From contig DASXEJ010000393.1 in NCBI GenBank assembly GCA_036490175.1, positions 1 to 64,000 of the forward strand: a stretch of 64,000 nt of DNA, read 5' to 3'. Made by a program: the position numbers and the translations under genes. Shown here in pieces: positions 17,703 through 30,703 of the stretch; positions within the stretch are counted from its first letter, which is position 1, and every line of letters starts with the position of its first letter. This stretch comes from Pirellulales bacterium. Its GTDB lineage: Bacteria; Planctomycetota; Planctomycetia; Pirellulales; JACPPG01. The notes under the pieces are model-generated. The model worked only from the letters and a program-made list of their open reading frames with translations, did not search any database and had not been told where the DNA came from.

Positions 17703-20700
17703 TTACTCGGCCAGGTGGTCGGCCCCTTCGACGGGCTCGCGGCTGCCGTAGAAGCTGTAGAGTACCGGAATCAAATTGAACATCAGCAGCGTCGTGACCA
17801 TGCCACCTACGACCACGATGGCAAGGGGACGTTGTGATTGCGCCCCAATCTTCGTCGACACGGCTGCCGGCAACAGGCCCAGGATGGCCGTCAGAGCAGT
17901 CATCGTCAAAGGACGAATGCGATTTTCCGAGCCGGTCCGTATTGCAGCGTGCAGTGGAACACCACTGGCGCGCAGCGCGTTGAACGAGGACACGAGGAGC
18001 AATCCATTCATCACCGCCACGCCCAGGATGGAGACGAACCCGACAGCGGCCGAGACGTTGAAGTTCAAGCCCGTGAGCCACAACGTCCACACGCCGCCCA
18101 TCGACATCACGGCGACGTTCGCCAGCACGACGATCGCGTCGAGCAAGGAGCGAAACGCCAGATAAAGCATGATCATGATCAGCACCATGGCCAAGCCGAC
18201 GATGATCGCCATGCGATGCTCGGCTTCTTGCATCTGTTGAAACTCGCCACTCCATACTGCCCTATAGGGCGGTTTGAGGAGTGTGGCCGTTTTGGCTTGT
18301 GCCTCGGCCACGGTGCTAGCCAGGTCGCGGCCGCGGACGCCAAATTTCACGGCGATCAGGCGGCTGCCTTGCTCGCGGGAAATGATCGCGGCGCCAGGCC
18401 GAACGAAAACACCATGAGGATCCGGCACGCCGTGAATGTCAACCGGGGTTACCAGGTCCTTCAGGCGACGTCGCGGTACGCGGCTCACGCTGCCACCGGT
18501 GGCGCTATAGTTGCTGCCTGTCACGTTCGGTCGTTGCACGCTGGTGCCAGAGGCCGACAATGTTTGCGAACTGGCCGACTCGGCTTCCCCGGGAATGTTG
18601 TTTTTGACAACATCCACGGGAATATCCAGGATCTCCTCTTCGGTTTGCCGCAGGTCCTTGGGCCAGCGCAGCGTGACGTCGAACGAGCGCTCCCCTTCGA
18701 TCATGTTCGTAAAAGGCTTACCGCCCACGGCGGTTTGAATCACGTCTTCAACGTCGGCCACGCTGACGCCCCACATGGCGCACTTTTCGCGGTCCACAGG
18801 AAACGCCAGGTTCGATTGACCACGAATGTGGAAGACTCCGGGGTCGACAACTCCGGGCACGTTTGCCAATACATTGTTGAACTCGCCAGCCAGACGCTCT
18901 AGCTCGTCCAGTTGCGGTCCGATGATCTTGACCGAATTCTCCCCTTTGACCCCCGACAGGGATTCCATGACATTGTCGCGGATCATCTGCGAAAAATCCC
19001 AATTGATGCCGATCAGATTGCGCGACAACTCTTGGTTCATGTCGCGGATCAGCTCTTCTTTCGTGCGGGGTCGCGATTGACCCTCGGGCGCCTTCCATTC
19101 ATCGGGCGGCATTAGCGGCACGAAGCATTCCACGTTGTAATAGCCCGTCGGATCGGTGCCATCGTCGGGGCGGCCGATTTGCGAGGTGGCGAGCCGCACC
19201 TCGGGATATTTGGTCATGATCTGGCGAGCCAGGTGCGCCTTGTCGACGGCTTCGGCCAGCGACACGTTCACCGGGAACGTGCCGCGGACGATCATGTTGC
19301 CCTCTTCCAGTTCGGGCATGAACTCCCGGCCGAGGAATGGCAAGTAACACAGCGTGGCGGCCGTGATGAAACCGAAGAACCCCATCGTCAAAAAGCGATG
19401 CCGCAGCAGCAGATCCATCTCGGCTAGTGTGAATGCCTTTAGCGCACGGACCATGACGTTGTCACGAGCCGGCTTCAATCGCGTGAAGAATATCGAGCAC
19501 AGCACGGGCGATACGGTCAGAGCCAAAATCAACGCCCCGCCCAAGGCAAAGGCATAGGTATCCGCCATTGGGCCAAAGATTTGCCCCTCGGGTCCGGTCA
19601 TCGTGAACAGCGGCAGCATGGCGCAGATCATGATGATCGTGGAAAAGAACAAGCTGCGCTCAACCTCGCGCGAGGCGCGCAAGATGCGATCTTTAAGTGG
19701 CAAGTTCGCATTCTCGCCGGCACTCAGTCGGCGGTAGATATTCTCGACCATGATCACCGACGAATCGACGATGATGCCGAAATCGACCGCGCCGATCGAC
19801 AATAGATTGGCCGACTTCCCGCGCAGGAACAGCACGGCAAACGCAAACAGTAACGCCAGCGGAATATTGATTGCCACAATCACGGCCGCCCGCACGTTAC
19901 TGAGAAACATCAGCAGAATTACCGACACCAGCAGCATGCCGACCAGCAAGTTCTCGCGCACGGTCTCGGTCGTCACGTTGATCAAACGCGAACGATCGTA
20001 GAACGCCTCGATTTGCACGCCCGGCAGCAGCCGCCCGGGCGTATTATTGAATTCGTCGATCTTGGCTTCGACGTCGGCCAGCGCCGGAATGGATTGCTCT
20101 CCCTTGCGCAACAGGATGATTCCTTGCACCTCATCGGCAGAATCGACCCATTGACGCTTTCCCTGCGCGTCGAGTATTTCCTCGCCGTGCTCATCCAAGA
20201 CCGGGGTCGTGATGGCCAGTTGGCCCTGCCGTGTCTGGTGCCCCACGACCACACCACGCTCCCCCATCGCCCCGCCGCTCTTGACGGGCCCCCCCTCGAC
20301 GACGTGCTCAACGCGGATCGGCACATTGTTGGTGGCGGCGATCACGATGCGGCGAATTTCTTGGATGCGACGGTTCTCTTCTTCGCGCAGATAGGCGGCG
20401 GCCTCTTCGGGCGTCGGCATTTGCATGGCTTCCAGCATCGGGTCTTCGCCGCCGCCGATCAGGCCGATGCCGCGCACGACCTGAATCGCATCTCCCTGCA
20501 CAACGTAATCCCCTCCCACGTTGGCATTGCTGTTCGCGACGGCCTCCTGAAGCTGGTCGAGCGTGATGCCGTATTCCTTTAAGCGGTCGGGGTCAGGCCG
20601 GATTTCGTAGCGCTTCACCTCGCCCCCCGAGCTGACCACGCCCGCGATCCGCGGCACGCGACGGAACTCGCGCTGCAGCGTCCAATCCTGCAGTGATTTC

Positions 20701-21173
20701 AGATCGTTGAGGGTATAGATCGGCCGCCCGTGGCTGTCCTTGGGACTGGTAAGCGTATAGCGCACGATTTCGCCAATGGGGGAAGCCGGCGAGATCTGCG
20801 GCGTCACTCCCGTCGGCAGGTCGACCGATTGCAAGCGATTGATGACCTGCTGCCGCGCGTACTCGTAGTCGACGCCGTATTCGAACTGGTTGCGCAGATG
20901 CGACAATCCGAACATGGATTTCGCGCGTGTGTACTTCAGGCCGGGGATACCGGCCAAGGCGACTTCCAGCGGGATCGTTACCTGCCGCTCGACCTCTTCG
21001 CTCGACGCACCGGGATATTGCGCGACGACTTCCACGATCGCGGGGGCCGGGTCAGGATAGGCCTCGACATTGACGTGCGTAAACGCGTACCCGCCGACCC
21101 CGACCAAAGCCGCGGCGAGAAGCAGTACGACGACGGGGCTGTGGAGAGCCCATTGGACGAGTTTCGCGACCAT
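17703..21173 (-). CDS. Heavy-metal RND efflux pump (CusA/CzcA-like)
   Basis: A 1156-residue resistance-nodulation-division transporter with twelve TMs and two large periplasmic domains. The heavy-metal subfamily signature is visible in TM4: VDFGIIVDSSVIMVENIYRR (proton-relay aspartate and glutamate). PYPGASSEEVERQV-like and FMPELEEGNM motifs are also typical. It is about 100 residues longer than classical CusA because of insertions in the periplasmic domains (around residues 240-345 and 840-905). It is the last gene of a CusC-B-A set on the minus strand. The metal ion, if any, cannot be assigned. Confidence 0.9.
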   Translation of the reverse strand: MVAKLVQWALHSPVVVLLLAAALVGVGGYAFTHVNVEAYPDPAPAIVEVVAQYPGASSEEVERQVTIPLEVALAGIPGLKYTRAKSMFGLSHLRNQFEYGVDYEYARQQVINRLQSVDLPTGVTPQISPASPIGEIVRYTLTSPKDSHGRPIYTLNDLKSLQDWTLQREFRRVPRIAGVVSSGGEVKRYEIRPDPDRLKEYGITLDQLQEAVANSNANVGGDYVVQGDAIQVVRGIGLIGGGEDPMLEAMQMPTPEEAAAYLREEENRRIQEIRRIVIAATNNVPIRVEHVVEGGPVKSGGAMGERGVVVGHQTRQGQLAITTPVLDEHGEEILDAQGKRQWVDSADEVQGIILLRKGEQSIPALADVEAKIDEFNNTPGRLLPGVQIEAFYDRSRLINVTTETVRENLLVGMLLVSVILLMFLSNVRAAVIVAINIPLALLFAFAVLFLRGKSANLLSIGAVDFGIIVDSSVIMVENIYRRLSAGENANLPLKDRILRASREVERSLFFSTIIMICAMLPLFTMTGPEGQIFGPMADTYAFALGGALILALTVSPVLCSIFFTRLKPARDNVMVRALKAFTLAEMDLLLRHRFLTMGFFGFITAATLCYLPFLGREFMPELEEGNMIVRGTFPVNVSLAEAVDKAHLARQIMTKYPEVRLATSQIGRPDDGTDPTGYYNVECFVPLMPPDEWKAPEGQSRPRTKEELIRDMNQELSRNLIGINWDFSQMIRDNVMESLSGVKGENSVKIIGPQLDELERLAGEFNNVLANVPGVVDPGVFHIRGQSNLAFPVDREKCAMWGVSVADVEDVIQTAVGGKPFTNMIEGERSFDVTLRWPKDLRQTEEEILDIPVDVVKNNIPGEAESASSQTLSASGTSVQRPNVTGSNYSATGGSVSRVPRRRLKDLVTPVDIHGVPDPHGVFVRPGAAIISREQGSRLIAVKFGVRGRDLASTVAEAQAKTATLLKPPYRAVWSGEFQQMQEAEHRMAIIVGLAMVLIMIMLYLAFRSLLDAIVVLANVAVMSMGGVWTLWLTGLNFNVSAAVGFVSILGVAVMNGLLLVSSFNALRASGVPLHAAIRTGSENRIRPLTMTALTAILGLLPAAVSTKIGAQSQRPLAIVVVGGMVTTLLMFNLIPVLYSFYGSREPVEGADHLAE

Positions 21174-21391
21174 GAATGATTGCTCGGCGCATCGCCCGTG
21201 TTCTACCTTTGTCGAATGCGCGGTCGCGGGAGACTTTTGAGGTCCTGCGACAAACTAGCGGCGGTCGATTTCAGGCATGAATCGATATGGCGACTTTCCC
21301 CCGCATGTTTCTACGCAGCTCGGGCAGACGACGCAGGATCCGTCCTGGTCAGATGGGAAGAATCGAAGGTTTCTTACCAAGGTGTAACGCA

Positions 21392-22858
21392 TTAGTTGGC
21401 CGACGGCACCGTAGTCGCCTCGCCTTCCGCCGCGTTGGCGCGGCGCACGCGCGCCTCGACATGCGGTTGCGCGGCCTTGAGCAGGGCCAGCTCGTTGTTC
21501 AGCTCGATCACACCCGAAGCCAGCACGCGCTCGCCCAATTTGAGGGGCGTGGCGCCGGCCGCCCGTTCGGCCTCGTTGGGCTCGCTACGGATGCATACTT
21601 TGCTGGGCATCCGACTGGTAACAGCCACCAGATGGCGCGTGAACTCGTCAGGGTGAGAGTTGTCTTGCACGAAAATCGCCGCCAAGCTGCCATCTTCGAT
21701 GACGGATTTGGTCGGCACCGCGACCATCGCCGGATCGGCGTCGAGGTCGATGGCCGCCGTCACGAACTGTCCCAGGTTCATGCGGCCGCTACTGTTATCC
21801 AACGTACCCATGATGGTGCCTGTATGATCGGCCGGATCGATGATACCGCCCACGATTTCAAACGCCCCCGACACCGGCTCATCAAACGGATCGGATTTCA
21901 GGTCGATTTTCCAACGACGCTTCTCGGGCGGCACGTGCCGCAAGGTCGGCAGGTCCTCCTCGTAAACCCGTGCCAGGATGCGGATATGGCTGGTATCCGC
22001 GATCTTGAACAAATCGTCGGAGGGATCGACGAGTTGCCCTAAACTGAAGTTTTTCTCCAGGATTCGCCCGTCGATGGGAGAACGTACTTCAGTATTCGCC
22101 CAGCTTTTCTCCACCGCTAAGTCGGCGTTGGTGTCCTTCCCGCCGTCGGTCGCATCCTGGGGCTTGCGGTTCTCCAGCTTCTTGGCCTCGCTATAGACGA
22201 CGTCGATATCTTTTTCTAACAACCCCCACGACAGCAAAGTTCGCCGCGCGTCCTCTACCGCCACCATCGCCTGTTGGTAATCGCGATTGGCGTCGATGAT
22301 GGCGCGTTGGGCAATCGCGCCTTGCTCGGCACTTTCGAGTCGCTTGAGAATGTCTTGGGTCGTGTGCAGTTTCGACAAGGCGTCGACCAGCTCGCTCTTC
22401 TTCGCACCGACCTCGGTGCTCCAGACGACGGCCAGAACCTGATCCTTGTGAACATGATCTCCATAGCGCAGCGCGCGCTTTGGCTGATCAGAAGGGCCGT
22501 CTTCGAATCTGCCAATTTCCACCACGCGGCCGCCGGCGAAACGGGCCTTGATGCGCACCGAGGAGTCGGAATCCAGATCCACGCGCCCCTGTAGCTTTAG
22601 CGGCGGAGGCGGGGGAGCCGGCTCGACTGTGGCCAAACGATAACCCATCTTAGTGAGTGCATTCGGAGCGAACTGCACGGTATCCGTCTGACCGGGGGCC
22701 AGCGTCACAAGCGCGCCTGGATCGTGCTCCGGATCGAATGTTTGCGCGGGGCTTTCCCACTCCTCGAAGCCGCGAAACGCCACCCCCACTGCGCCCAGCA
22801 ATAGAATGCCGACCACGGCCCAGGGGACGATTTTTCGAATCGAAACTCTTGCAGTCAT
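21392..22858 (-). CDS. CusB/CzcB-type membrane fusion protein
   Basis: A 488-residue periplasmic adaptor with one N-terminal TM (about 11-31), a first lipoyl half (KARFAGGRVVEIGRFEDG), a helical hairpin, and the second half VRSPIDGRILEKNFSLGQLV. The C-terminal barrel domain carries the family feature PTKSVIEDGSLAAIFVQ. No Met-rich or His-rich metal-binding tail as in CusB is seen, so metal specificity is open. It lies between the outer-membrane factor and the RND pump with gaps of 258 and 218 bases. Confidence 0.9.
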   Translation of the reverse strand: MTARVSIRKIVPWAVVGILLLGAVGVAFRGFEEWESPAQTFDPEHDPGALVTLAPGQTDTVQFAPNALTKMGYRLATVEPAPPPPPLKLQGRVDLDSDSSVRIKARFAGGRVVEIGRFEDGPSDQPKRALRYGDHVHKDQVLAVVWSTEVGAKKSELVDALSKLHTTQDILKRLESAEQGAIAQRAIIDANRDYQQAMVAVEDARRTLLSWGLLEKDIDVVYSEAKKLENRKPQDATDGGKDTNADLAVEKSWANTEVRSPIDGRILEKNFSLGQLVDPSDDLFKIADTSHIRILARVYEEDLPTLRHVPPEKRRWKIDLKSDPFDEPVSGAFEIVGGIIDPADHTGTIMGTLDNSSGRMNLGQFVTAAIDLDADPAMVAVPTKSVIEDGSLAAIFVQDNSHPDEFTRHLVAVTSRMPSKVCIRSEPNEAERAAGATPLKLGERVLASGVIELNNELALLKAAQPHVEARVRRANAAEGEATTVPSAN

Positions 22859-23116
22859 GCCGCCACGTGCGACGAGAAGGGGAAACTAGATCGAAGTATC
22901 GTTGAATTTTCCGTTGAGTGTCAACCGCGACTTGTCCCACGAAAGCAACTGCCATTCGGCGATGCTTGGGACAGTTTTGTGCGCGTTCCGGGCGCCCTCT
23001 ATTTCCCACATAGCTCACCCCCTGTACTACGTGGAGGGCATTCCCAAGGGTTTGTTCTCATTTCCCAGAATACAGGCAAAGGGACCGATCGAATCGCTCG
23101 TTTCGTTACAATGCCG

Positions 23117-24520
23117 TTAGGGGAAGCTCTCGACTTGCAAAAGCCCAGCCAAGGTAGCGGCACTCATCCAGGCGGTTTCCAGCGTTTCGATGTAGTCCAA
23201 GTTGACCTGGGTGAGGGCCCTCTGGGCTTGCAATACGGGCGCCACGTCCATCTGGCCGACGTCGTAGGCGTTTCGCACTAACCTCTGGGTCCGCTCGGCG
23301 GTCGGCAGAATCTCCTCGCCGATGCGGAGCGAGCGATCGCGGGCTGTGCGATATGTGGCCAGCGTTTCGGCCGCTTGCCGCAGCAGGTCGTTCTGCAAGA
23401 CGCCCACCGAGGCCACCGAATCGCGAATGTTGGCGTTGGCCGCGCGGATGTTGCCCTGGTTGAGATTCCACACCGGGATATTCATCTGCATGTTGATCCA
23501 CAACTGCGCCCCGTTGCCGCCGTTGCTGCCAGAACTGGGGCCAAAAGCGATCGCCGGGCCCACGTAGGGATTCGGGTATGGTTCCACGCGCGCCCGCTGA
23601 TAGAGGAACCGGTTCTGGGCAATTTGCAATTGCGCTTCGACCACCGCAGCATTGCGCGTGGCGATGAACTGCCGCATCGGTTCCTCGTCGAACTTCGGCA
23701 AATTGGCTGTTAAATCTCCCAGGGCGTCTTGAATCGGAAAGGCGGGAATCCCCATCGTGGCAGCCAGCGCCCGCCGGGCACCGGCCAGGATGGTGCGCGA
23801 GTTCTCTAGCGCGATCTGCGCTTGTTGCAACTCGGTGAGGAGCAGCAGCACGTCGGTCTCGGCAACTTGCCCGGCCTTCTCTCGTTGCTGCGCCGCGGAG
23901 TGAGATTTCGAGGCGATCTGCACCAATTGTTCGAGCACCGCGACGCGGCGTTCCTGCGCCAGCATATGATAAAACTGCTGTCGCACCGCGGTTAGTAGCT
24001 CGAACCGTTGCCGGATGTAACCCATCCGCGCTTGTTCGACGTCTTGCATCGCGGCCGCGCGATCTAGACGCAACTTTCCCTTGACCGGCACTTCCTGACA
24101 GAAGCCCGCGTTGTACTGGCTTTGGCCACCGGCAAAGACTTGCGGATTGTTGGTATCATAGCGCGGGTTGGGCGGAATGCCTGCCTGGATGGCGATGCCC
24201 ATCTTGGAATCGATCTGCGCGCGCGCTCTTACCAGGATGGGATTGTTGCGTACGGCGAGCTCGCTGGCCTGATCCAACGTCAGCGAAGCGCCTTCTGGGG
24301 CGGCGATGCTCACTCCCTGGCCCGATTGCACTGGACGCGGCACGACCTCTTCGTATCCGCCGCCGGCTGGTGGGAGACTCTGCATGGCGACGCGCGTCGC
24401 ACGGCTGGAAGTTGCTCGCTGCTGCGATTGCTGTGCTAGCAGAACGTGCTGCGTGCTGGCGACGACGCCAAGAACAACAGCAACCTTTTGCCACAGGCGA
24501 ATCACAAGATGCGCTCCCAA
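23117..24520 (-). CDS. TolC/CusC-type outer-membrane factor
   Basis: A 467-residue outer-membrane efflux protein. It has an N-terminal signal segment (VAVVLGVVASTQHVLLAQ, about 13-30) and two OEP halves with typical stretches: LTLDQASELAVRNNPILVRA (about 80-99) and the C-terminal YDVGQMDVAPVLQAQRALTQ. It lacks a lipobox, unlike the NodT-type protein near the left edge. It is the first gene of the CusCBA-like set. Confidence 0.9.
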   Translation of the reverse strand: MGAHLVIRLWQKVAVVLGVVASTQHVLLAQQSQQRATSSRATRVAMQSLPPAGGGYEEVVPRPVQSGQGVSIAAPEGASLTLDQASELAVRNNPILVRARAQIDSKMGIAIQAGIPPNPRYDTNNPQVFAGGQSQYNAGFCQEVPVKGKLRLDRAAAMQDVEQARMGYIRQRFELLTAVRQQFYHMLAQERRVAVLEQLVQIASKSHSAAQQREKAGQVAETDVLLLLTELQQAQIALENSRTILAGARRALAATMGIPAFPIQDALGDLTANLPKFDEEPMRQFIATRNAAVVEAQLQIAQNRFLYQRARVEPYPNPYVGPAIAFGPSSGSNGGNGAQLWINMQMNIPVWNLNQGNIRAANANIRDSVASVGVLQNDLLRQAAETLATYRTARDRSLRIGEEILPTAERTQRLVRNAYDVGQMDVAPVLQAQRALTQVNLDYIETLETAWMSAATLAGLLQVESFP

Positions 24521-26147: not shown

Positions 26148-26753
26148 ATGCGCTGGCCCCTTGTGCTAGGAACTCACAACCGAAAAAAAGGGCTCGAGTT
26201 GGCCGAGCTGGTCGCGCCGCTGGGAATCGAAGTGCGCACGCTGGCCGACTTTCCGCAGCCGTTGACCGTCGTTGAAGATGGCGACAGCTTCGCCGCGAAC
26301 GCGCAGAAAAAAGCCACCCAGCAAGCGCGGCATCTGCACGCGTGGGTATTGGGCGAGGATAGCGGTCTAGTCGTCGACGCCTTGGGCGGAGCACCCGGAA
26401 TCTATTCGGCGCGGTTCTCTGGACCCGACGCGACCGACGACAAGAATAACGTGCGCTTATTGGCCGACCTGGCCGATATTCCAGCGGCACGCCGCACGGC
26501 ACACTACATCTGCCACGCAACGCTCGCCAATCCGGCGGGCCAGGTGATCGCCGAAGCCGAAGACACCTGCCAGGGTTTCATTCTGCTTGCGCCGCGTGGA
26601 TCGGCGGGCTTCGGTTACGATCCCTTGTTCGAGATCGTCGAGTATCACCGTACGTTCGCCGAACTTGGTAACGCGGTGAAGGCTTGCCTCAGTCACCGGG
26701 CCAGAGCGTTGCGCAAGCTGCTGCCCAGCCTGCCAGCGCTGCTCGAAGCCTGA
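26148..26753 (+). CDS. rdgB: RdgB/HAM1-type inosine/xanthosine triphosphate pyrophosphatase
   Basis: A 201-residue enzyme that hydrolyses non-canonical purine triphosphates (dITP, XTP) to monophosphate and pyrophosphate, keeping them out of DNA and RNA. Family motifs are in order: LGTHNRKKGLEL (about 7-18, the phosphate-binding loop), GEDSGLVVDALGGAPGIYSARF (catalytic Asp region, about 64-85) and GSAGFGYDPLFE followed by SHRARAL. The start at 26148 was chosen because the phosphate loop must lie near the N-terminus. Length matches the family. Confidence 0.95.
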   Translation: MRWPLVLGTHNRKKGLELAELVAPLGIEVRTLADFPQPLTVVEDGDSFAANAQKKATQQARHLHAWVLGEDSGLVVDALGGAPGIYSARFSGPDATDDKNNVRLLADLADIPAARRTAHYICHATLANPAGQVIAEAEDTCQGFILLAPRGSAGFGYDPLFEIVEYHRTFAELGNAVKACLSHRARALRKLLPSLPALLEA

Positions 26754-26796
26754 GCGGTCGTAGATCGTCAGGCTCCGTGCATTCTTGTGCGGTGGC

Positions 26797-26838
26797 AAAA
26801 AAAAGAGCGGACGATCCAGGCGCTACTGGACCGTCCGC
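26797..26838 (-). terminator. Intrinsic terminator downstream of the Cys/Met-rich gene
   Basis: On the minus strand a 13-bp stem (GCGGACGGTCCAG paired with CTGGATCGTCCGC, one G-T pair) with a 6-base loop is followed by an almost uninterrupted T run (26797-26804 read in reverse). It lies 75 bases beyond the stop of the Cys/Met-rich gene, so that gene is probably monocistronic. Confidence 0.88.
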
Positions 26839-26912
26839 CAATCGAGTTCGCCGCATGTCTGCAGCGAACTCGGCTAGCTCCCTTGAGGGGAGAAGTATTC
26901 TCAAACAGCTGA

Positions 26913-27371
26913 TTAGCAGGTGCAGCAGCAGCAAGGCATGCCGCCGAAGCACACGCAGCACATGCAACCGGCCTTCATGCAGCTGCTTACGCAGTCGCAG
27001 CAGGCTTGCAGCATCTCGCAGCAGGCCTTATCGCCCGAGGTGCAGGTGACGCACACGCCGTCCTTGGTCATTTCGCATTTGCAATTGCACATGGCGAAAT
27101 TGCACTGGCACATGACCATGCCATTCATCATGCAGCTGCAGCTGCACATGCCACTGGAAAGCATGCGGCAAATGTTCTGCAGCGTGCCGCACGACACTTC
27201 GTCATCGGTCGAGCAGGTCATCTTGATGCCGCCGCTGCACTTCTCCATCTTCATTTTGCACTGCGGCACCATCGCCATGCCGGGGGCCATGGCGGGCATT
27301 CCGGACATTGGCAACGAGCCACTCGTCATCCCAGGCATCGACATGGGACGGTCCACCATCATCATGGACAT
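26913..27371 (-). CDS. Extremely Met/Cys-rich small protein, putative metal-binding
   Basis: A 152-residue protein containing 30 cysteines and 27 methionines (about 38 percent of all residues). The N-terminal 34 residues hold 12 Met in M-P-G/M-x-M spacing and no Cys. From residue 38 on, cysteines appear in C-x-C, CC and C-x3-C patterns, for example CCEMLQACCDCVSSCMKAGC (the C-x3-C helix pattern resembles copper-storage Csp/DUF326 helices), and the protein ends in CCCCTC. There is no signal peptide. The start has AAAGGAG 6 bases upstream, and an intrinsic terminator follows. A role in binding copper or another soft metal is an inference from composition; a redox or structural role is also possible. 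Confidence 0.85.
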   Translation of the reverse strand: MSMMMVDRPMSMPGMTSGSLPMSGMPAMAPGMAMVPQCKMKMEKCSGGIKMTCSTDDEVSCGTLQNICRMLSSGMCSCSCMMNGMVMCQCNFAMCNCKCEMTKDGVCVTCTSGDKACCEMLQACCDCVSSCMKAGCMCCVCFGGMPCCCCTC

Positions 27372-27836
27372 TGCAGACTCCTTTCAAAATAGAGGGGCCA
27401 GTCAAACTGCAAGGCGGTAAACCGCCTGCAGCTTGTACCGGCCGGCAACTCGACCGCGCTCCTCTGGATTGCCCAGTCAGATAACGCGACGTTCGTTGAG
27501 TGATACCTCCCGCAAGACGGGTCGGCTTTTCCGGCGATTGCTGTCAGAAATGTAGATAACCGGACAGATATACGCAAGTCTTTTTCCCAACACGGCTTAA
27601 ACTGACAGCACCGGAATCAACTTTGTAAACAACGCCGATGGGGTAACGAGTATGGCCAGGTCAGCGTCGACTTGGGCTTCGCCACGGGGGGAACTCATGT
27701 CACCACGGGACTCTGCTCGATAAAAGACTTGGAACAGTCGTGCCCGAGAAGCGGAATCTGCCGGCCGTTCCGCCCCGCCACAGCACGCGAGTCTGCCGTG
27801 CTGTCCTTTCACGATCTCAAACCCCGCGGACGACCC
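27372..27836. other. Divergent intergenic region with dyads
   Basis: This 465-base gap lies between the Cys/Met-rich gene (minus) and the cystathionine beta-synthase gene (plus). It contains a strong dyad at 27407-27430 and an 8-bp inverted pair GCTGTCAG/CTGACAGC (27540-27547 and 27602-27609). No small gene or riboswitch was recognised. Promoters for both genes should lie here. Confidence 0.5.
27407..27430. promoter_or_regulatory. Candidate operator dyad upstream of the Cys/Met-rich gene
   Basis: A near-perfect dyad (CTGCA-A-GGCGGT, AA, ACCGCC-TGCAG) with one bulged base sits 36-59 bases before the ATG of the Cys/Met-rich gene. Its position fits an operator or a 5' UTR hairpin. No T tract follows in either direction, so it is not a terminator. 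The binding factor is unknown. Confidence 0.4.
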
Positions 27837-29219
27837 ATGACCACGACGCTTGCACCGGTCGACGTCCTGTCATTGATTGGCAATACGCCGCTCGTCGAAT
27901 TGCACTCGTTCGATGTCGGGCCTTGCCAGCTGTTCGTCAAATTGGAAAGCCACAATCCTGGCGGATCGATCAAGGATCGCATCGGCCGGTCGATGATCGA
28001 AGCGGCCGAGCGAGACGGAAAGATCGGCCCCGGGTCGACACTCGTCGAGGCCACGGCCGGCAATACGGGGTTGGGCTTGGCCTTGGTGGCCGCGCGCAAG
28101 GGATACCGCCTGGTGCTGGTGATTCCCGATAAGATGAGCCGCGAGAAGGTCTTTCACCTGCGGGCCCTGGGGGCCGAGGTTGTCATGACTCGCAGCGACG
28201 TGGGCAGGGGCCATCCACAGTATTATCAGGACCTGGCCGAGCGCATTACACGCGAGACGCCGGGCGCCTTCTACATCAACCAATTCAATAATCCCGCCAA
28301 TCCGCTGGCGCACGAAACGACGACGGGTCCCGAAATCTGGGAGCAATGCGGGCACGACCTTGATGCCGTCGTGTGCGGCGTCGGTTCAGGGGGCACGCTG
28401 ACCGGCCTGAGCCGTTACTTTGCCGAACACGCACCCGACGTGGCCATGGTGCTTGCCGATCCGGCCGGCTCGGTGTTGGCCGAATTTCTGCAAACAGGCC
28501 GCATTGGCGAGGCCGGTTCCTGGGTGGTCGAAGGCATTGGCGAAGACTTCATCCCGCCGATCGCGGATCTGTCGCGCGTGCGACAAGCCTTTACGGTCAA
28601 CGACGCGGAAAGCCTGCTGACGGCCCGCGAGCTATTGCGGCGCGAAGGCATCCTGGCCGGATCCTCGTCAGGAACACTGGTGGCCGCGGCATTGCGCTAC
28701 TGCCGCGAGCAAAGTCAGCCGCGCCGCGTGGTGACCTTCGTGTGCGATTCGGGCAACAAGTATCTCTCCAAAATGTTCAACGACTTCTGGTTGGCGGACC
28801 ACGGGTTCTCGAAGGCGCATCCCCTGGGGGACCTGCGCGACGTGATTTCGCGCCGTTTTGCCGACGGCGCCGTGGTCAGCGTCACGCCCGACGAGCCGCT
28901 GGCGATCGCCTATTCGCGCATGCGGATGTACGACATCTCGCAATTGCCCGTGATTGATCACAAGCAAATCGTCGGTCTGCTCGACGAATCCGACCTGCTG
29001 CTGGCCGCGTCAACCGATATCGAAGCATTCCGCCGGCCCTGTCGCGATTGCATGACCACGCGGCTGGAAACGGTCTCGCGGCAGGCGACTTTGCACGAGC
29101 TGCTGCCCATGCTGAACGCAGGCAAAGTCGTAATAGTGGCCGACGACAACGAATTTCACGGCTTGATCACGCGCGTCGACATGTTGAACTATCTGCGGCG
29201 CGAACGCCGCGCCGCGTAA
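27837..29219 (+). CDS. Cystathionine beta-synthase-type PLP enzyme with CBS domain pair
   Basis: A 460-residue enzyme of the cysteine synthase/CBS fold type II. The PLP lysine is Lys46 in NPGGSIKDR; the phosphate-binding and substrate loops are visible as EATAGNTGLGLAL and GVGSGGTLTG. The C-terminal 125 residues form two CBS motifs (VVSVTPDEPLAIAYSRMRMYD and the second ending VIVADDNEFHGLITRVDML), as in human CBS but without a haem domain. It would condense serine with homocysteine. A cystathionine gamma-lyase-type gene follows after 230 bases on the same strand, completing reverse transsulfuration. A cysteine synthase role cannot be excluded. Confidence 0.9.
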   Translation: MTTTLAPVDVLSLIGNTPLVELHSFDVGPCQLFVKLESHNPGGSIKDRIGRSMIEAAERDGKIGPGSTLVEATAGNTGLGLALVAARKGYRLVLVIPDKMSREKVFHLRALGAEVVMTRSDVGRGHPQYYQDLAERITRETPGAFYINQFNNPANPLAHETTTGPEIWEQCGHDLDAVVCGVGSGGTLTGLSRYFAEHAPDVAMVLADPAGSVLAEFLQTGRIGEAGSWVVEGIGEDFIPPIADLSRVRQAFTVNDAESLLTARELLRREGILAGSSSGTLVAAALRYCREQSQPRRVVTFVCDSGNKYLSKMFNDFWLADHGFSKAHPLGDLRDVISRRFADGAVVSVTPDEPLAIAYSRMRMYDISQLPVIDHKQIVGLLDESDLLLAASTDIEAFRRPCRDCMTTRLETVSRQATLHELLPMLNAGKVVIVADDNEFHGLITRVDMLNYLRRERRAA

Positions 29220-29449: not shown

Positions 29450-30703
29450 ATGAGCACTGTGAGCGAGTTTTTCACGTCTGTGGCGTCCTGGCCGTCGTTA
29501 GTGCTACGCCGGGGCGACGCGCCGCATGCCGCGCTTATTGTGGACACCGAAACCTGCCGAGCGGCGTTCAATACACGCGCGATTCATGCCGGCCAGTCCC
29601 CCGATCCCACGACGGGCGCCGTGATGACACCGATCTATGCCACGAGCACCTATGCCCAGCAGTCGCCCGGAGTGCACAAAGGCTTTGACTACGGTCGCAG
29701 CCACAATCCCACACGGTTTGCCTTCGAGCGCTGCGTGGCCGATTTAGAAGATGGGACCCAGGCTTTTGCTTTCGCGTCCGGACTGGCGGCGATGGCCACG
29801 GTGTTGGAACTGCTGGACCACGGCTCGCACGTGCTGGTATGCGATGACATTTATGGCGGCTCGTTCCGGCTGTTCGAGCGCGTGCGACGACGCTCGGCCA
29901 ATCTTGACTTCAGCTTTGTCGACGCGACGAAGCTGGACGATTTCCGCGCCGCGATCCGTCCGAACACCCGCATGATCTGGATCGAAACGCCATCGAATCC
30001 GCTGTTGAAGCTGGCGGATTTGGAAGCGATCGCGGCACTGGCGCGCAAGCATCGTATCCTGAGCGTGGCTGACAATACGTTCGCCACTCCGTATGTGCAG
30101 AGGCCTTTATCGCTGGGTTTCGACATCGTCGTGCATTCGGTGACAAAGTATCTCAACGGCCATTCCGACGTGATCGGCGGCACGGCCATCGTCGGAGAAA
30201 ATCCGTCGCTGGCCGAACGGCTGGGCTTCCTGCAGAACGCCGTGGGAGCGATTGCCAGTCCGTTCGACAGCTTCCTGGCCCTGCGCGGACTGAAGACCTT
30301 GGCCTTGCGCATGGAACGACATTGCCACAACGCGCTAACGATTGCCCAGTGGTTGGCCAATCGGTCGGACGTCGTACGCATTCATTATCCAGGGTTGCCC
30401 AGCCATCCGCAGCATGCGCTGGCCAAGCGCCAGATGCGCGGCTTCGGCGGCATGATATCGGCCGTGCTCGAAGGGGGCGAACCGCGAGCCCGGCGATTCT
30501 TGGAACGCTGTCAGATATTCACGCTGGCCGAAAGCCTGGGAGGCGTGGAGAGCCTGATCGAACATCCGGCGCTGATGACGCACGCCACGATCCCGGCCGA
30601 CAAACGCGCGGCGCTGGGCATCGACGACGGCCTGGTCCGCCTTTCGGTGGGGGTCGAAGACGTCAACGACCTGATCGGCGACCTGGAACAGGCCTTGGCT
30701 TAA
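29450..30703 (+). CDS. Cystathionine gamma-lyase/gamma-synthase-type PLP enzyme
   Basis: A 417-residue Cys/Met-metabolism PLP-dependent enzyme (fold type I). Hallmarks are NTRAIHAGQSPDPTTGAV (about 41-58), YGRSHNPTRFAFERCVADLE, the PLP lysine Lys233 in HSVTKYLNGHSD, and the closing ESLGGVESLIEHPALMTH. The N-terminus is about 38 residues longer than the core family; the ATG has an AAGGAAA site, so the extension may be real. Paired with the CBS-type gene it would cleave cystathionine to cysteine. Lyase and synthase cannot be told apart from the sequence alone; the context favours lyase. Confidence 0.9.
   Translation: MSTVSEFFTSVASWPSLVLRRGDAPHAALIVDTETCRAAFNTRAIHAGQSPDPTTGAVMTPIYATSTYAQQSPGVHKGFDYGRSHNPTRFAFERCVADLEDGTQAFAFASGLAAMATVLELLDHGSHVLVCDDIYGGSFRLFERVRRRSANLDFSFVDATKLDDFRAAIRPNTRMIWIETPSNPLLKLADLEAIAALARKHRILSVADNTFATPYVQRPLSLGFDIVVHSVTKYLNGHSDVIGGTAIVGENPSLAERLGFLQNAVGAIASPFDSFLALRGLKTLALRMERHCHNALTIAQWLANRSDVVRIHYPGLPSHPQHALAKRQMRGFGGMISAVLEGGEPRARRFLERCQIFTLAESLGGVESLIEHPALMTHATIPADKRAALGIDDGLVRLSVGVEDVNDLIGDLEQALA

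Follow-up and report, generated by a model that had tools for sequence, protein, structure and literature searches.

A cysteine- and methionine-rich protein family of Planctomycetota near sulfur-linked genes and behind a candidate regulatory RNA

Proteins with very high contents of sulfur amino acids are known from several settings. The sulfur-rich seed storage proteins, such as 2S albumins and Met-rich zeins, combine a very high Cys/Met content with a possible function as sulfur reserve; they are plant, secretory and disulfide-bonded proteins, and the family described here resembles them in composition. Metallothioneins likewise display a very high Cys content together with CxC and CC motifs. 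Among bacterial proteins, the cytosolic copper storage protein Csp3 holds 18–19 Cys residues (PMC5171941), and the walls of Planctomycetes contain Cys-rich YTV-domain proteins (PMC8567305). On the regulatory side, the Rrf2 protein CymR acts as the cysteine master regulator in Firmicutes, where it pairs with CysK, and its loss in S. aureus affects copper stress too (PMC2869319). Sulfur starvation induces the SrpI encapsulin (PMC8346489).

Here, we analyzed a gene for a Cys/Met-rich protein within a 64,000-nucleotide stretch of Pirellulales DNA, termed the window (Table 1). Our data add an unnamed, widespread planctomycete family with a predicted fold unlike that of the copper-storage proteins, and uncover an undescribed, strongly covarying leader RNA common to sulfur-linked genes.

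Table 1 Features of the window around the Cys/Met-rich protein gene.
Feature	Position	Strand	Basis or remark
Cys/Met-rich protein gene (152 aa, 30 Cys, 27 Met)	26913..27371	(-)	dN/dS; 70-member alignment A3
Met-rich head codons, residues about 1–31, predicted disordered, lineage-specific	27279..27371	(-)	pLDDT <50
First predicted ββ-α-ββ repeat, residues 33–94	27090..27275	(-)	AF2 and half-versus-half hhalign
Second predicted ββ-α-ββ repeat, residues 94–152	26916..27092	(-)	AF2 and half-versus-half hhalign
Shine-Dalgarno region GAAAGGAG	27378..27385	(-)	AAGGA(G) likewise 5' of most close homologues
Terminator-like hairpin and T-run	26806..26839	(-)	1 found versus 1.3 expected by chance
Long leader hairpin, between conserved RNA element and ribosome-binding site	27396..27443	(-)	recurs in similar form only among homologues within the genus
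Conserved two-hairpin RNA leader element (GCYGA-stem-AGG, twice)	27455..27528	(-)	models R1/R2; 67.7 bits
Divergent neighbour, cystathionine beta-synthase type (PALP and CBS domains)	27837..29219	(+)	Pfam; start at the Met of MTTTLAPVDV
Cystathionine gamma-lyase (CGL) type, Cys_Met_Meta_PP	29450..30703	(+)	Pfam
CzcA/CusA-like RND pump, membrane-fusion protein and TolC cluster	17703-24520	(-)	

Composition and conservation of the family

The open reading frame starts with ATG, every one of its Cys codons is TGC, and the encoded protein ends with the residues CCCCTC; recounting confirmed both this carboxy-terminus and the numbers of Cys and Met given in a preliminary description of the locus. 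His, Trp and Tyr are absent from the protein. Cys and Met together make up 37.5% of the residues, more than one third, with the runner-up among the 124 window ORFs of at least 100 aa reaching 14%. Comparison of the gene with homologues of the same genus yielded dN/dS values of 0.16, 0.16 and 0.07, so that the reading frame represents a protein under purifying selection, in line with the proposal of a real gene. The good ribosome site proposed earlier was likewise found, whereas the proposed intrinsic terminator exists as a hairpin with T-run but lends weak support to the gene, because a single such site is close to the number expected by chance.

Homologues were identified in 13 of 58 near relatives and, across the class, in 63 of 398 genomes, and a wider phylum sample of 294 genomes had them in three, the window genome being one of these; many of the surveyed genomes are metagenome-assembled. 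A first scan of GTDB contigs returned seven family loci, all of them planctomycete, and the family is confined to Planctomycetota among the genomes searched. Plasmids and viral contigs yielded no relatives, on which ground a mobile origin was rejected. Searches of Pfam, NCBIfam, PHROG and PDB sequences gave no matches, which bears out the earlier statement that no family is recognised, and our literature search retrieved no paper on the protein family or on its leader RNA.

The alignment of 70 members (A3) shows that the Cys pattern is conserved in relatives, with 15 columns of at least 90% Cys and 28 columns of at least 50% Cys; the earlier proposal, which would have been refuted by a lack of such homologues, thus stands on this point. 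The fraction of Cys plus Met lies between 0.19 and 0.45 across all 70 homologues, which to our knowledge places the family among those with the highest sulfur content, and the Cys:Met ratio ranges from 38:3 to 18:72. Where Met is replaced in the core, the substitutes are Leu, Phe, Ile and Val, enriched 6.5-, 9.9-, 2.8- and 1.6-fold, respectively, whereas Cys gives way to Met, Ala and Val. It follows that constraint rests on the Cys residues and that core Met serves mostly as a hydrophobic residue. Very distant homologues (L054 and L055, in genomes G451 and G493) contain 64 and 72 Met and 18–19 Cys, many Cys positions having been taken over by Met.

The division into a Met-rich head and a Cys-dense body, as initially described, holds for the window protein, where residues 1–37 comprise at least 12 Met and no Cys, but such a head is not a trait of the family. 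The window genome also encodes a paralogue (G000:C8, 55% identity) that is poor in Met and richer in Cys; both types are likewise present in two further genomes (G004 and G054), and the tree splits them. The Cys-type paralogues, including G000:C8, exhibit a Met-poor, Ala/Pro/Ser-rich amino-terminal head, and the Met-rich head is restricted to subgroups. Conserved metal ligation by Met was therefore rejected, as core Met swaps to hydrophobic residues and the head is unconserved.

Predicted fold and comparison with known proteins

AlphaFold2 modelling with the 70-row alignment predicted a core with a pLDDT of about 95 over residues 40–150. The first predicted repeat consists of strands 35–45 and 48–54, a helix (58–71) and strands 76–82 and 85–91, the second of strands 96–101 and 105–111, a helix (115–133) and strands 137–142 and 145–151, adding up to eight strands and two helices in a mostly β architecture. 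A separate alignment of 14 Cys-type members gave the identical order of elements at lower confidence. Aligning the two halves with hhalign resulted in an E-value of 3.9e-10 and a score of 48, whereas none of 60 column shuffles scored above 17; by this sequence comparison the two halves are homologous and arose by internal duplication. The core is thus predicted to comprise two tandem β-β-α-β-β repeats, and from the alternation along the predicted strands we infer that most of the conserved Cys face inward. Foldseek searches of solved and viral structure libraries gave weak best matches (E-values 0.33 and 0.10), as did VIA (Z 4.0, 1s12); these matches are unrelated and a known fold was not adopted, which does not by itself prove a new one. 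No hydrophobic signal sequence was detected, the maximum 19-residue hydropathy in the amino-terminal region being 0.76, and the protein is therefore probably cytosolic with its thiols presumably reduced.

In being small, carrying many Cys in a folded core and not needing disulfides, the predicted protein resembles the Csps, to which it had been likened on account of C-x3-C helices. Csps are four-helix bundles with C-x3-C helices, whereas the family is predicted to be mostly β with a duplicated ββ-α-ββ unit; two helices are indeed predicted but form a minor part of the fold. The family also differs in having more Cys, many Met, and sulfur instead of copper neighbours. The PF03860 (DUF326) profile matched none of the 70 members at E-values up to 1, the same profile detecting Csps in eight of the 58 related genomes and none in the window genome, and hhalign comparison of the family with planctomycete Csps gave a probability of 0.1%. 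Kinship to Csp/DUF326 was thus rejected by profile, predicted β/α fold and gene context, and the analogy may hold for the mode of working where membership fails.

The suggested comparison with metallothionein families was equally without match in Pfam and NCBIfam. The window protein has CxC and CC motifs in common with metallothioneins but is larger, contains many Met and has a predicted fold with a hydrophobic core. A weak HMMER hint came from DUF2218 (PF09981), with matches in four of 70 members and a best E-value of 0.083, but the profile–profile alignment, covering a hairpin-Asp-helix stretch, was not significant (hhalign probability 0.24%, E-value 0.25); DUF2218 moreover lacks a Cys array and is virtually absent from the phylum, and was not retained as a relative.

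Sulfur-linked neighbours and a structured leader

We surveyed the flanks of 60 family loci, using ORFs called by a simple GC-frame score. The nearest CysK/CBS homologue is less than 2 kb away at 15 of the 60 loci and 2–8 kb away at none; for Rrf2 the corresponding numbers are 21 and one, and CGL occurs within 4 kb at eight loci. A sulfur-linked gene of any kind was present within 5 kb at 38 of the 60 loci and absent at 22, counts that are not independent because the loci are related by descent. The neighbours are divergent in the window's genus and in f2, f14 and f21; where they share the strand of the family gene, they follow it in f22/f23 and precede it in one case. This variety argues against simple descent from a single arrangement. 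Pfam confirmed the Rrf2, PALP plus CBS and Cys_Met_Meta_PP neighbours, and at four other loci (L061, L066, L069, L072) also identified nearby sulfate-type ABC transporter genes (CysA_C_terminal, permease, binding protein) and/or DUF2292.

The Rrf2 neighbours are of two kinds, one with a single Cys and no Fe-S triad, and one with C92/C101/C107, the latter located beside CysK. In f21 genomes (L083, L087, L102, L106) the palindrome CATCAAAGTTCTTTGATG is positioned 5' of the family gene and beside the Rrf2 gene. Allowing two mismatches, it recurs at the family gene in six of eight whole f21 genomes and almost nowhere else, and is probably a dedicated operator.

Other neighbours were more restricted. 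The RND membrane-fusion protein and TolC occur 2–5 kb from the gene in the window and two further genomes of its genus, and owing to this limitation the RND/TolC operon was dismissed as a functional partner. No copper exporter, CsoR or CueR was recognised among the recurrent neighbours of the family. Many f21/f23 loci contain small unnamed ORFs of 74–95 aa divergent from the family gene (L078:7550-7837(-), L087:7486-7710(-), L095:8740-8976(+)) with a common YRLAYEQA-like stretch; Pfam returned no match for the two that were scanned. In addition, a DDE_5 transposase-like gene lies 0.6–1.8 kb upstream on the same strand (L078:6690-7394(+)), with equivalents in 11 f23 loci.

The RNA upstream of the window gene (27369-27510(-)) is predicted to fold with −61.4 kcal/mol (z −4.2). 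Comparison of upstream regions delineated a conserved element of two tandem hairpins, each following the pattern C-Y-[GA]-stem-loop-stem-[A]-R-G with a 2×1 GA/A internal loop, the second being enclosed by an outer stem and situated 85–136 nt 5' of the start codon. Covariation scored 0.175 in an alignment of 11 sequences, compared to 0.104 in shuffles. The 44 structure-fitted copies, an alignment that leans to the model, reached 0.352 compared to 0.167 in shuffles (0/500); both partners had changed in 14 of 17 pairs, and the covariation collapsed when partners were slid. At the gathering threshold, Rfam 15 matched neither the window leader nor those of 15 loci, and the two sub-threshold matches within 26700-28000 do not overlap the leader. 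As a structured 5' leader near sulfur genes the element resembles SAM/SAH riboswitches and other Rfam leaders, yet has no match among them, and on this sequence comparison it represents a candidate for an undescribed class of cis-regulatory RNA of Planctomycetes.

In whole-genome searches, 14 of the order's 16 family genes had the element directly 5' of them. It was detected in 12 of 13 family-positive relatives compared to six of 45 family-negative ones (p 2e-7, kinship ignored), and class-wide in 60 matches in 30 of 298 genomes, for which the covariance-model E-values are rough. Up to seven copies occur per genome. Of 67 classified ORFs behind the element, at least 36 are DUF1559/N-methylation pilin-like, mostly starting 17–24 nt after it; five are PSCyt1-type, and porins, BON and lipoproteins are also present. 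Because most RNA-model matches precede DUF1559 genes, we do not claim a purely sulfur riboswitch. Four of the 67 entries are SrpI-like encapsulins, two of them representing one locus. An RNA-led encapsulin locus in G053 (L248 587-7378, G053:C479) comprises two SrpI-like shell genes, one with a Pfam-confirmed cNMP domain (L235), and continues, by sequence reading, with a SufS-like cysteine desulfurase with long amino-terminal extension, a cysteine synthase and a sulfatase.

Candidate roles of the protein

Taken together, the neighbourhood and the leader RNA suggest above all a link to sulfur/cysteine metabolism, and with cysteine-making neighbours and an RNA common to sulfur genes the protein is therefore probably a store of sulfur or thiols and not a known copper-storage protein. 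We tentatively favour, as a call slightly short of even, a Planctomycete-specific cytosolic reservoir or buffer of reduced sulfur with two repeats of ββ-α-ββ type and synthesis under sulfur control. Besides the neighbours and the common leader, this reading is favoured by the high Cys plus Met fraction that persists despite the swings of the Cys:Met ratio, by the f21 palindrome beside Rrf2, and by the precedents of CymR and the SrpI encapsulin. The protein core would be lined by Cys (and Met), and its synthesis would be set by the sulfur status of the cell, to which the leader and the putative Rrf2 operator would respond. A surplus of Cys and Met would be stored in this soluble, folded protein with its many thiols and released again by proteolysis, or the thiols might act directly as a buffer. 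Several points speak against such a reservoir: the strictly conserved Cys columns exceed the need of a pure amino-acid store and fit a ligand function or a defined structure; the element may respond to another signal, the DUF1559 majority having no established sulfur link; starvation, if it were the inducer, would make so sulfur-rich a protein an ill-suited product; and 22 of the 60 loci lack a sulfur neighbour, in a set of related loci.

The serious rival to the sulfur reservoir is a store or buffer of soft metals (Cu(I)/Ag(I), possibly Zn/Cd/Hg), in which a cytosolic metal cluster would form on the core thiolates and the Met tail would provide low-affinity entry ligands, the protein working like Csp3 with a different fold. 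Strict Cys conservation equally allows such a metal store when co-regulated, and the Cys supply would then be co-ordinated with synthesis of the protein because it consumes so much Cys. The lack of His, the CxC and CC motifs, the internal two-fold repeat and the nearby RND/TolC genes fit this role as well, as does the altered copper stress upon loss of CymR in S. aureus (PMC2869319). However, the RND/TolC adjacency is confined to the genus, recognised copper-specific genes are missing from the recurrent neighbours, and the core Met behave as hydrophobics and not as ligands. We consider metal storage possible, if doubtful.

A persulfide/sulfane-sulfur carrier or thiol-redox buffer, whose Cys array would be loaded with sulfur by cysteine desulfurase or CGL and pass it on, or guard against thiol stress, would agree with the CBS, CGL, CysK and Rrf2 neighbours and with the identical leader before the encapsulated cysteine-desulfurase operon; it is improbable, as no rhodanese, DsrE or TusA-like domain was found and the Cys count lies above the need of a carrier. 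Highly improbable is a disulfide-cross-linked structural protein of cell wall or stalk like the YTV proteins, which are likewise Planctomycete-specific and Cys-rich but are wall proteins, whereas the family is small and compact, has no signal sequence or Pfam domain match, and no domain in common was found.

A bolder version of the sulfur reservoir, a dedicated Cys/Met store whose synthesis would be set by a new metabolite-sensing RNA also governing an encapsulin/cysteine-desulfurase compartment and cell-surface genes, is rather unlikely. The protein family and the RNA make planctomycete sulfur storage and sensing, as well as a bacterial Cys/Met protein reserve, testable questions.
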